From a virus, in IMG/VR virus record IMGVR_UViG_3300037264_002101, positions 1 to 26,405 of that record: 26,405 bases of DNA; one strand, 5' to 3'. Positions 1,140-11,498 of this stretch are shown here, one piece after another. The translations under genes and the position numbers were made by a program. Position 1 is the first letter of the stretch, and every line of letters begins with the position of its first letter. The notes beneath the pieces were generated by a model. It had not been told where the DNA came from, searched no databases, and was given only the letters and a program-made list of their open reading frames with translations.

Positions 1140-1190
1140 ATGATGTTGCGTTTGTTGCGTTTGGCATGATGTTGCGTTTGTTGCGTTTGG
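1139..1190. repeat. 26-bp perfect tandem repeat (two copies)
   Basis: Positions 1139-1164 and 1165-1190 are identical and contain TTGCGTTTG subrepeats. They fill the spacer between two Leu tRNA genes, consistent with local slippage or duplication during array growth. Confidence 0.95.
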
Positions 1191-1273
1191 TCCGAGCGGA
1201 GGGACTTGAACCCTCACGACCTTGCGGCCAACAGCCTCTCAGACTGCCGTGTCTGCCATTCCACCACGCTCGG
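1191..1273 (-). tRNA. tRNA-Leu(GAG)
   Basis: Type II tRNA: acceptor CCGAGCG/CGCTCGG, anticodon loop CTGAGAG, long variable arm, T-loop TTCAAGT, encoded CCA. Confidence 0.93.
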
Positions 1274-3656: not shown

Positions 3657-4290
3657 TCAGAACTTGCCCTTCATGAAATCCCCAAGACGCCAGGAACGGC
3701 CCGTGTCGTGGTCCACTACCTCATTGCGCTGAGTGTTGTGAGTGAAGGATTTGGCCGAACGCTCAGCGTCGATCTGAGTACGTCGCTGGGCATTGCTTAT
3801 GTGCGACTCCTCGGCTGCACGGTGGGCCGCTATCCGTTCAGATAGCACCTTCCGCGCCTCTTGGCGGTTCTGCCACTGAGATCGCCCATCGATGCGAACT
3901 TCGACCCCCGTAGGAACGTGTGTCAAAATGACACACGAGTCCGTCTTGTTGCGATGCTGACCGCCGGGGCCGGAGCCTCGGGCGAACCGCTCGGTAAGAT
4001 CATCCTCATTAAGTACGAAATCGCTTTCGATCTGATCGAGGATCGCGACAGTGGCGGTAGAGGTATGGCGCCGCTGCTCCCCCTTAGGGATGCGCTGGAC
4101 GCGGTGGGTGCCGATGAAGGGTTCGAGGAAGGTGGTATCACTCACCTCCAAGATCATCGTGCGAGCGGAGTCATCGACGCTGGAATCAATCCCACGTCGG
4201 CGCGCGGCGGAACGCAGAGCGTCAAAGCAACTCCTTGGAGAAGCGTTGCGCGTCGTCACCACCCTCGCCTGGCCTGATTTCAACTCGCAT
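3657..4290 (-). CDS. Class I release factor-like protein, made by +1 programmed frameshift
   Basis: Frame 0 starts at ATG 4290 (AGAAGGAG six nt upstream), encodes 22 residues starting [17 protein letters not shown], then meets CTT TGA C. Shifting +1 at CTT joins a 188-codon frame to give about 210 aa. The joined protein matches release factor domains 2-4: [20 protein letters not shown] (about 60-68), RRHTS, catalytic GSGPGGQ with GGQ at about 109-111, and a typical RF C-terminus. Domain 1 is missing. The codon-reading segment is [11 protein letters not shown], with neither the RF1 PxT nor the RF2 SPF tripeptide, so stop-codon specificity is unclear. The downstream frame alone lacks the EIRPGEGG start and would need a TTG codon at 4283. 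It lies between tRNA array 2 and recA, in the same direction. It could alternatively be a ribosome-rescue factor. Confidence 0.88.
4221..4236 (-). promoter_or_regulatory. RF2-type +1 programmed frameshift site
   Basis: Minus strand reads AAGGAG TTG CTT TGA C: a Shine-Dalgarno-like hexamer, three-nt spacer, slippery CTT, UGA stop and C as fourth base. The geometry is that of the bacterial prfB autoregulatory site. The +1 frame gives the correct RF sequence immediately downstream. Confidence 0.88.
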
Positions 4291-4332
4291 GGGGTTCTCC
4301 TTCTAGTTGCAACTGAACAGGGTCAAGATTGG

Positions 4333-4401
4333 AGCCGTCGCCAGGAATCAAACCCGAGGTAACCGCGGTACAAAGGCGGCGCGCTCATCAGAGCCAACGG
4401 C
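4333..4401 (-). tRNA. tRNA-Thr(TGT), reduced D-arm
   Basis: Acceptor GCCGTTG/CGACGGC, T-arm with loop TTTGATT, encoded CCA. The anticodon loop region reads CTTTGTACC with an inner C-C mismatch. The D-arm is only GCTC-TGAT-GAGC without the usual GG loop, giving a 69-nt gene. Possibly degenerate or a minimal tRNA. Confidence 0.7.
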
Positions 4402-5945: not shown

Positions 5946-6629
5946 TTATCCCAAGTCCTTGATCCGTTCGAGCACCAAGAGGCGTTCAGCGAGTTCCTCG
6001 CTGGGGTTCTCGGGCAGGTCGGTGTCAGCCGAGTTGAAGTCGTCCATGAGGGAACGCACCATCTCCTCGTAGCCCTCCACGTCGTTGGCGGCCATCAGCC
6101 CGGCCTCGCGGCACATCTGAACTTCCTCAGAAGTCAGGCGCACACGCAGGACGCCCTCAGACAAAACGGCCATACCCTGGATGATGAGCCGGTAGCAGTG
6201 GCGTCCGTGCTTCTCGGTGCGCTTCTTGAGGTCGGCAGAGAACCCAGCGCCCGGCTCTGCCTCCTCGCGACGCTTCAACCGCTCCAACTGCTGGATGGCG
6301 TAGCCCCCGTAGGTCTTGCGAACGCGCTGGCTCAAGAAGGACTGACGGATGCCCACGAGGGCTTCGCCCACTTCGGTGCACACCTCGTACTCGGGCAACC
6401 AGAGCAACTCCATCACCGTGGGGTTGTTGGCCAAGCACAACTTGACAAACTTTGCCAACTCGTGGTGGGCCACATCGGGGTCGTGGGCGACGCGCGACTC
6501 CTTGGGCGGGTGCAGGCCCAGCAACTCAGAGGTGCGGGCCTGGAACACGCCGAGGCGATCGATGTCAGAGGTTGGGGTGGCAAGGCCGTATGCCGTCGAA
6601 CCGACGACGCCTTGAAGGATCACGTTCAT
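5946..6629 (-). CDS. RlaP-like nucleotidyltransferase (pol beta fold)
   Basis: About 227 aa. The N-terminus carries GSTAYGLATPTSDIDRLGVF (residues 10-29), the GS...DxD signature of pol beta-type nucleotidyltransferases, closest to the RlaP family described as a component of RNA repair operons. The ATG at 6629 is chosen because the TATGGT -10 box lies 7 nt upstream (leaderless); a frame start at 6641 would sit inside the promoter. Pnkp and an RNA ligase lie 3-5 kb away on the same strand, and tRNA array 2 is directly downstream. The nucleotide added and the substrate are unknown; tRNA end repair is the natural inference. Confidence 0.85.
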   Translation of the reverse strand: MNVILQGVVGSTAYGLATPTSDIDRLGVFQARTSELLGLHPPKESRVAHDPDVAHHELAKFVKLCLANNPTVMELLWLPEYEVCTEVGEALVGIRQSFLSQRVRKTYGGYAIQQLERLKRREEAEPGAGFSADLKKRTEKHGRHCYRLIIQGMAVLSEGVLRVRLTSEEVQMCREAGLMAANDVEGYEEMVRSLMDDFNSADTDLPENPSEELAERLLVLERIKDLG

Positions 6630-6636
6630 ACCCGAC

Positions 6637-6659
6637 ACCATACCTGTCAGGTATGACAG
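6637..6659 (-). promoter_or_regulatory. Leaderless promoter of the nucleotidyltransferase
   Basis: CTGTCA-N11-TATGGT, 7 nt before the ATG. The region holds two dyads: CCTGTCA-TACC-TGACAGG and CATACCTG-T-CAGGTATG (6640-6656). The dyads could be an operator. Confidence 0.72.
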
Positions 6660-9549: not shown

Positions 9550-10407
9550 TCAGAAGTCCCCGTAGGCAACCTGGAAACAGGTCAGACCGGCGTCACGCCA
9601 CATCCTCACGACCTGATCGCGGTCATCAATGACCAACACGGGGTTCCAGTGAGGGAGGATGTCCCGTTCCAGAATCTCGCGCTTGATGATCGAGTCCTTC
9701 CGCATGTCGCCCTCGGGACGCATCAGCACGCTGACGAAGGGAACGTCGTACTGCATCAGCCACGCCATGGTGTCCCGACGAACCTGCTCGGTGCCTTCAC
9801 GACCCGAGCACACCACGACGTGCCGCGTCTCGGCCAGCATCTTGACCAACTCCACGACCCGAGGGTTCGGGGCGTCCTCCAAGCACTTCTCGTACTCGAA
9901 GGGGCCGCGGCTGACGTGAAGGGCGAGGGTGCCGTCCACATCGACCACAACGCACTCAGGGAGGCTCTCATCGACCGTGACGGTCACATCCGGCTTGAGG
10001 TGGTCGTTGAACATCCTCATGATGACCTCGGCCCCCACCGAGCGATCGCGGGTGAGGTCGCGCTTAATACACTCCTCGGGCGTCACGTCGGTGAAGTCCT
10101 TCGTCTCGAAGTGGGCGCCGAACTCACGCGCCAACTCCCTGAGGTGATCGACCACGCCATGCTGGATGTTGGTGTCATCACAGATGACCGTGAGGCCATC
10201 CGCCAGACCGGCACGGATGAGGGCGTCACGGGCGACCTTGGTCGCCTTCTCCTTGCCCTTGGACCATTTGGTATCACCGTGCAACATCACGCGGAGCGAG
10301 TCGCGATTTACGACCACCGTGTTGCCGGGGTTCTTCTTCACTTGTTCGGCCGCCCAGGTGGACTTGCCCGATGCGGGTAATCCTTGTGTTGCAATCAACT
10401 TGATCAT
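9550..10407 (-). CDS. pnkp: Polynucleotide 5'-kinase / 3'-phosphatase
   Basis: 285 aa, T4 Pnkp domain order. The N-terminal kinase has a P-loop GLPASGKST (residues 9-17), NRD (34-36) and a DDTN motif (77-80). The C-terminal phosphatase of the HAD type has DVDGT (156-160), CSGRE (200-204) and IDDRD (260-264). The enzyme heals broken RNA ends by removing 3' phosphates and phosphorylating 5' ends before ligation. Its start overlaps the RNA ligase stop by 4 nt (ATGA), so the two are translationally coupled. All key residues are present. Confidence 0.94.
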   Translation of the reverse strand: MIKLIATQGLPASGKSTWAAEQVKKNPGNTVVVNRDSLRVMLHGDTKWSKGKEKATKVARDALIRAGLADGLTVICDDTNIQHGVVDHLRELAREFGAHFETKDFTDVTPEECIKRDLTRDRSVGAEVIMRMFNDHLKPDVTVTVDESLPECVVVDVDGTLALHVSRGPFEYEKCLEDAPNPRVVELVKMLAETRHVVVCSGREGTEQVRRDTMAWLMQYDVPFVSVLMRPEGDMRKDSIIKREILERDILPHWNPVLVIDDRDQVVRMWRDAGLTCFQVAYGDF

Positions 10408-11498
10408 GTTTCTTCCTCTCGATCTACGAATGGCTTCTCTGCTGCGGGCTTGATCATCTGCCAGATGGCCGGGGCGATGTCCTTGCCGTCAAACAGCGAG
10501 AACATCAGGCCGGGGGACGACGACTTCTTAGCCCTAGCAGCGAAAGCCTTGCGGTCCCCGTCGGGCGTGTTGTGACAGATGATGCTGAACTCCTCGTAGG
10601 CCGCATCTTCGATGGTCTTGAATTGCAGGTTGAGGTCGGAGATGACTCCCTTGACCCAGCCGTAGAACTCATCAGGAACGCGGTCCAGCACGTCGGTGAA
10701 GTCACCGCCACGGGCGAGGACTTCCCAGACACGCTTGGAGTTGATGCCAGTGATGATCCGGTGGAGCCGGACGTACTCGGGGTGCTTCACCTTGAGCCGG
10801 AATGAAGGCTCGCCGGGGCGGTACCAGACCGCCACGACACCCTCGTCCTCCTCATGATTGTTCCCCGTGGCGAAACGGTAAACCGCATCCATGTCGCCAA
10901 CACCAACGTGCTGGGTGGTGCGAGCACCGAGCCACCAGTCGATCTCCCACAAGGGGATGTCGGCTCCGGTAGCGATGTCGATGGCACCCAACATGACCAA
11001 CTCTGCCCGATCGCCATAGTTCACAACGATGCGGTTCTCGGGAAAGATGATCTCCACCAGGGTGGTGACACCTTCGGGTTGAGTGAAGTCGGGCATCTCG
11101 GCGTTCAGCCAGGCCGTGGCCCAGATGGCCTGATCGCTCATGAACGACCCACGGGTGGACACGGCGAAGCGACCATCGGGACGCTTGTAGATGATGCCAA
11201 GCGAGCCGTCCATCTTCTCCGTCACGATGGGCGGAATGGTCAGGGCGAACTTCGGAACAGTCGTCTCGGAGTGGTTGAAGAACTTGGGGAAAGGGCGCGC
11301 CAACACTTTGCCGTCGCTGGCGACAATCAGTCCACGACACGCCGAGGTCACGGGCGTCCAAGCGCGGGTGATCTGGCAGATCGATGAGTAGTTGTAGATC
11401 GTCAGGTCGAACTCGGGATGGCTCTGCGTCATGAGGTGCTTGGCCTCGATGGCCGCACGAATGTCGTCGTCCGAGAACAGGTCGTTGATGTGGGTCAT
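10404..11498 (-). CDS. RNA ligase, T4 Rnl1-like
   Basis: 364 aa. Nucleotidyltransferase motif I is EKMDGS with lysine 95 as the predicted AMP-accepting residue. Motif III-like E149 lies in TLVEIIFPENRIV, motif IV is EGVVAVW (219-225) and motif V is KVKHPEY (236-242). Upstream, ACRGLIV (about 53-59) is the Rnl1-type conserved R. A helical C-terminal domain follows, as in tRNA-specific Rnl1. With Pnkp it forms the classical RNA break-repair pair that restores tRNAs cut by anticodon nucleases. A good ribosome binding site (AAAGGAGG) precedes the ATG. Confidence 0.93.
   Translation of the reverse strand: MTHINDLFSDDDIRAAIEAKHLMTQSHPEFDLTIYNYSSICQITRAWTPVTSACRGLIVASDGKVLARPFPKFFNHSETTVPKFALTIPPIVTEKMDGSLGIIYKRPDGRFAVSTRGSFMSDQAIWATAWLNAEMPDFTQPEGVTTLVEIIFPENRIVVNYGDRAELVMLGAIDIATGADIPLWEIDWWLGARTTQHVGVGDMDAVYRFATGNNHEEDEGVVAVWYRPGEPSFRLKVKHPEYVRLHRIITGINSKRVWEVLARGGDFTDVLDRVPDEFYGWVKGVISDLNLQFKTIEDAAYEEFSIICHNTPDGDRKAFAARAKKSSSPGLMFSLFDGKDIAPAIWQMIKPAAEKPFVDREEET

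Follow-up and report, generated by a model that had tools for sequence, protein, structure and literature searches.

A prfB-type +1 frameshift site in a phage gene for a putative RF1-like release factor, a member of a family interrupted by early stop codons

Introduction

Recoding of a stop codon in release factor genes has been described for bacterial prfB and, as a separate case, for Mimivirus. The prfB cassette has the consensus internal Shine-Dalgarno sequence, three bases, CTT, UGA and C; it occurs in 0 of 2,658 Actinomycetota genomes, shifting amounts to ~6.6% in M. smegmatis versus 52.7% in B. subtilis, and none of 8,164 bacterial prfB genes has TAG as the premature stop (Prince et al., PMC12421855). 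An early in-frame UGA that is read through was once considered as a scheme for RF2, no bacterial RF2 gene of this kind being known, and an RF1/UAG counterpart is likewise not known (Atkins et al. 2016, PMC5009743). The class I release factor gene of Mimivirus and Megavirus contains one frameshift and one readthrough (PMC3521657). Bacterial prfB and this eRF1-type gene, the nearest viral one, are the closest precedents for the phage gene analysed here. A preliminary description of the locus had stated that the prfB site is lost in many actinobacteria and knew of no example in phages; the genome survey cited above bears out the former, and our search, which covered open papers, turned up no description of recoded release factor genes in phages.

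Results

The shift cassette and its reading frames

The window, that is the whole stretch of DNA analysed (26,405 nucleotides), is a virus record of IMG/VR. Read along the minus strand, the order is AGAAGGAGAACCCC, ATG(4290), ... TCC AAG GAG TTG CTT TGA(4224-4222) C. The ribosome-binding site, AAGGAG (4297-4302, minus strand, read directly), lies 5' of the ATG that opens a 0-frame ORF of 22 codons plus stop (4222-4290, minus strand). The end of this frame is the full bacterial prfB shift cassette, AAGGAG-TTG-CTT-TGA-C. The internal Shine-Dalgarno-like AAGGAG (4231-4236, minus strand), identified by direct reading and by family statistics, ends 3 nt 5' of CTT; the slippery sequence CTT T (4224-4227, minus strand), at which CUU would shift to UUU, has its CTT in common with all other shift members of the family (see below); the gating stop TGA (4222-4224, minus strand, direct reading) is followed by C at 4221. 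The release factor continues in the +1 frame (3657-4223, minus strand), whose first codon is GAC and which encodes the rest of domain 2 together with domains 3-4. A +1 shift at CTT, with CTTT taken as one step, opens 188 more codons up to the stop TGA at 3659-3657 and yields an uninterrupted 210-amino-acid protein; no other route joins the two frames. Both the prfB-type geometry with its spacing and the obligatory nature of the shift, as put forward in the preliminary description, are thus borne out.

The site resembles that of bacterial prfB in its AGGAG-type internal Shine-Dalgarno sequence, the 3-nt spacing, CTT, TGA and C, its place early in a release factor gene and the continuation in the +1 frame. 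It differs in that the phage product is RF1-like and lacks domain 1, in that 15 of 73 phage shift members use TAG while related members carry in-frame stops instead, and in that the position of the site along the protein varies within the phage family. With the Mimivirus/Megavirus gene it shares the internal stops of a viral release factor gene, recoding here being predicted from sequence; however, the Mimivirus factor is of the eukaryotic/archaeal type, belongs to viruses of amoebae and represents a protein family unrelated to the bacterial RF1 type of the phage factor.

The joined product is RF1-like and consists of domains 2-4

Pfam matches the joined product to part of PCRF (profile positions 104-194) and to the complete RF-1 domain, and residues 3-208 align with solved RF1 chains, so the continuous release factor alignment said to be restored by the shift is confirmed. 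The product scores 140 bits against the RF1 profile, 91 against RF2, 66 against PrfH and 43 against ArfB, each below the curated cut-off of the respective profile (400, 370, 167 and 100 bits). Since the RF1 match starts at model position 108, domain 1 is absent; from domain 2 onward the product matches RF1, and it has the GGQ catalytic motif (3957-3965, minus strand) that is intact in every family representative. The SPF tripeptide of RF2 is missing. Where RF1 has its codon-recognition tripeptide PxT and RF2 has SPF, the alignment places PKG (4080-4088, minus strand), adjoining a two-residue deletion; members of the window clade have PKG or a PQG-like sequence with this deletion and no PxT, and most relatives have an RF1-type PPT. 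Among 169 parsed representatives, 158 retain the equivalent of RF1 Q181, the third-base residue. The predicted structure of an uninterrupted relative (L150, mean pLDDT 88.5) superimposes on ribosome-bound RF1 with a TM-score of up to 0.91, compared with ≤ 0.85 for RF2 chains and 0.69 for PrfH.

By these comparisons of predicted proteins the product is RF1-like rather than RF2-like, without domain 1. The release factor homology seen in the preliminary description stands with this correction; the +1 shift, moreover, is only one of several types of bypass in the family. Because the PxT threonine is lost, release activity of the window-clade factor is not assured. The best match among phage families is PHROG 19918, phage proteins of unknown function (103 bits, residues 3-208); unlike the joined product, its profile has 355 positions, and thus an extra N-terminal region, and recoding is not described there.

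Conservation and selection at the site

CTTTGAC occurs at the same alignment column in five relatives on separate contigs (L002, L003, L010, L093 and L094/L095), which are 50-80% identical in the best segment; in a DNA-level search for close phage relatives all matches were 44-46 bases long. The five comparisons with the window together give 39 synonymous and 20 non-synonymous codon differences in the 0-frame segment, and the identical DNA read in the +1 frame shows 8 synonymous and 54 non-synonymous. Judged by these codon differences, the 22-codon first frame is under purifying selection. It holds E4, G10, G11 and D13, which are invariant in the family alignment. From established RF1 structures we take the segment to be the helix tip that decodes the first stop-codon base, and a product without it should therefore not decode. 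Since both the site and a first frame under purifying selection are kept in the five relatives, the arrangement is explained neither by an error in sequencing nor by a dispensable N-terminus, the two possibilities that the preliminary description had named as refuting it; homologues retain the first 22 residues.

The phage family and its gates

Viral contigs were scanned once with a query and five times with alignments, and matches in genomes and phage records were added. This gave 464 loci, 404 products of which were classified by a family HMM on three-frame translations; with two bacterial release factor genes set aside, 175 phage-type representatives at 80% identity were retained. In this sample, which takes the best 80 loci per alignment scan, is not a census and was started from shift members as first queries, 73 of 175 non-redundant members require a +1 shift, 96 are interrupted in frame by one or two stops, always at model columns 36-51, and six are uninterrupted (L087, L108, L114, L150, L350 and L413). 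An early stop is therefore present in 169 of 175 members. The gate is UGA only in 148 of the 169, and all interrupting stops are confined to model columns 25-53.

Every one of the 73 shift members has CTT directly 5' of the 0-frame stop (56 TGA, 15 TAG, 2 TAA). CTT makes up 0.9% of codons in the family genes, and its presence at all 73 sites is far beyond chance. The shift stop lies at column 25 in the window clade (six members), at column 37 in 60, at columns 47-48 in four and at column 53 in three. A maximum-likelihood tree, a quick one in which many branches are weakly supported, requires at least 13 changes among shift, in-frame stop and no stop, or 16 if site positions are treated separately; the states cluster in clades on this tree and so are inherited.

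CTT TAG shift sites in this RF1-like gene are found, for example, in L012, L014, L035, L121, L138, L146, L151, L158, L417 and L431. In-frame stops occur in pairs, separated by a few codons, within one release factor gene in L089, L090, L097, L103 and L109, and likewise in L321, L322, L329, L356 and L359. The second stop of such members often stands in the context TGA CTG or TAG CTG, and several of them sit in phage genomes of 100-735 kb.

Signals around shift sites and in-frame stops

At the 73 shift sites the upstream consensus, GGAGG or similar, ends three bases 5' of CTT. Pairing with the anti-Shine-Dalgarno sequence, calculated for the 7-mer that stops 3 nt short of CTT with other codons of the same genes as control, averages -6.3 kcal/mol at shift sites versus -0.8 kcal/mol elsewhere. 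A Shine-Dalgarno core is present in 61 of 73 members, the other 12 having no obvious core, and C directly follows the stop in 57 of 73. No RNA structure was found 3' of the shift sites (mean z -0.4).

A single TGA at column 36 characterizes 66 representatives (e.g. L134:2989-3657, L127, L112 and L130) and is followed by A in 57 of them. The residue at this column is Phe in the uninterrupted relatives L150 and L108; in bacterial RF1 the position holds a conserved aromatic residue, usually Trp. The RNA 3' of the column-36 UGA is strongly structured (mean z -2.8, with 46 of 66 below -2; control -0.5). Structure here but not after the shift sites is consistent with different bypass mechanisms, and the genes with a column-36 UGA are apparent cases of programmed UGA readthrough in phage release factor genes. 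A candidate long-range stem in these members gives 381 pairs versus 331 in shuffled partners (sd 6), for arms picked post hoc, and does not appear in the RNAalifold output; it is a lead.

Genetic code, neighbourhood and host

TGA closes 89 ORFs in the flanks of members with in-frame stops, and just 18 of these continue at length in the same frame; in the window, TGA ends 16 of 24 ORFs. A genome-wide reassignment of UGA is rejected on these grounds. ARAGORN reported no suppressor tRNA among the 36 tRNAs of the window. Candidates for stop-reading tRNAs near gated release factor genes were seen in two of 56 loci scanned, at L131:5313-5384 (tca) and L109:4629-4701 (cta).

In the window the release factor gene is flanked by tRNAs and RecA. 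tRNA-Leu(GAG), which would be the isoacceptor that decodes CUU and slips there, is encoded at 1188-1273 (minus strand); as one of 36 phage tRNAs, among which nearly all types are represented, it is not specific evidence. A tRNA-like sequence lies directly 5' of the release factor gene (~4330-4400, minus strand); ARAGORN did not report it, and judged by eye its anticodon would be TGT. An RNA-repair set is also encoded on the minus strand, comprising an RlaP nucleotidyltransferase (5946-6641), a PNKP kinase-phosphatase (9550-10407) and a T4 Rnl1-type RNA ligase (10404-11498). Taken with the 36 tRNAs, these enzymes suggest a gene set that sustains translation in a damaged or depleted host.

The portal protein matches mostly actinobacteriophages, at 24-31% identity, and this distant similarity points to a possible actinobacterial host. 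In such a host, where shifting may be weak, the gate would stay shut most of the time. One CTTTGA family member (L038, 2853-3489) is located near a RES-domain gene in an actinobacterial isolate, Ornithinimicrobium murale DSM 22056.

Discussion

From the reading frames and the family comparisons we think it probable that this is the gene of a phage class I release factor of the RF1-like type (domains 2-4), that the early stop gates its synthesis and that the factor is made only when termination there fails. After 22 codons ribosomes would pause, with CUU in the P site, UGAC at the A site and AAGGAG paired with 16S rRNA. Quick action of a release factor would give a short dead-end peptide; were release slow, tRNA-Leu would slip +1 from CUU to UUU, GAC would be read next and the full factor would be made. 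In UGA-gated members the factor would thus appear when RF2 activity is short and would then supply termination capacity to the phage; UAG gates would sense RF1 activity. The sequence itself shows the cassette, the frames, selection on the first of them, conservation and the homology to release factors; efficient shifting, host RF2 as the factor that is sensed and peptide release by the product are elements that we infer.

For the family as a whole, it seems likely that selection strongly favours an early stop within the genes of a widespread phage RF1-like lineage, with the gate re-made repeatedly, and that the members of this lineage serve to sense termination capacity, deploying the phage factor when release, usually at UGA, fails. 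The re-made gates would comprise +1 sites at several columns, an in-frame UGA with structured RNA, and one or two later stops.

Which release factor the gate senses bears on the nearest alternative, a prfB-like autoregulation in which the phage product would recognize UGA and keep its own synthesis in check, with no part played by host RF2. The cassette with UGA is the same as in bacterial prfB, and codon specificity may be relaxed in the window clade, where PKG has replaced the tripeptide with its threonine. On the other hand, the Q181 equivalent is kept and PPT is present in most relatives, the RF1 profile outscores RF2, and nevertheless the great majority of gates are UGA only. With RF1-type codon-recognition residues in most members, UGA gating provides no simple self-sensing loop, and the simplest reading of an RF1-like product behind UGA-only gates is that most members sense host RF2 and not themselves. 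Autoregulation is accordingly possible but rather doubtful. The preliminary description had the phage sense release factor activity at UGA; gating by UGA stands, but self-sensing in the manner of prfB is not established and host RF2 is at least as likely to be the factor sensed.

A rescue factor similar to PrfH or ArfB would use the gate to report stalled or damaged ribosomes, and its product would free these instead of serving normal termination. The absence of domain 1, as in PrfH, the weak PrfH and ArfB profile matches and the RNA-repair enzymes of the window fit such a role. Both profile scores fall well short of their cut-offs, however, the modelled relative is structurally closer to RF1 than to PrfH, and the PrfH partner RtcB is mostly absent, being found in 3 of the 30 related records searched. 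A PrfH/RtcB system is rejected on the PrfH score and the rarity of RtcB, and rescue in the wider sense is unlikely.

Independent initiation of the +1-frame ORF, so that two genes would be present and the first 22 codons would not enter the protein, has in its favour that 46 of 73 shift members, the window among them with TTG at 4283, contain an ATG, GTG or TTG 5' of the shift in the +1 frame; yet the remaining 27 have none of these codons there, 54 of 73 have no ATG, and the first frame, whose protein sequence is conserved, joins continuously to the release factor alignment and contains what we take to be the reader of the first stop-codon base, which makes a downstream start very improbable. 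Errors of sequencing or assembly can practically be dismissed, as can a pseudogene or a reassignment of stops throughout the genome with suppressor tRNAs, for although most members come from metagenomic contigs and two of the loci scanned have a possible suppressor-type tRNA, the site recurs in separate contigs and in a named isolate genome, the interrupting stops keep to a narrow range of model columns, TGA ends ordinary genes and ARAGORN reported no suppressor tRNA in the window.

The phage family appears to hold in-frame UGA and UAG forms beside the +1-shift forms. If the gating of a phage RF1-like factor is confirmed, sensing and replacement of host termination by phages becomes testable, and the family would be natural material in which frameshifting and readthrough can be compared as answers to one regulatory need. 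Confirmation would also explain why gene finders truncate or miss such genes. The best BFVD match of the family is a phage 'PrfB' entry of 164 amino acids, shorter than the family members described here, as would be expected if gene calling begins past the gate.
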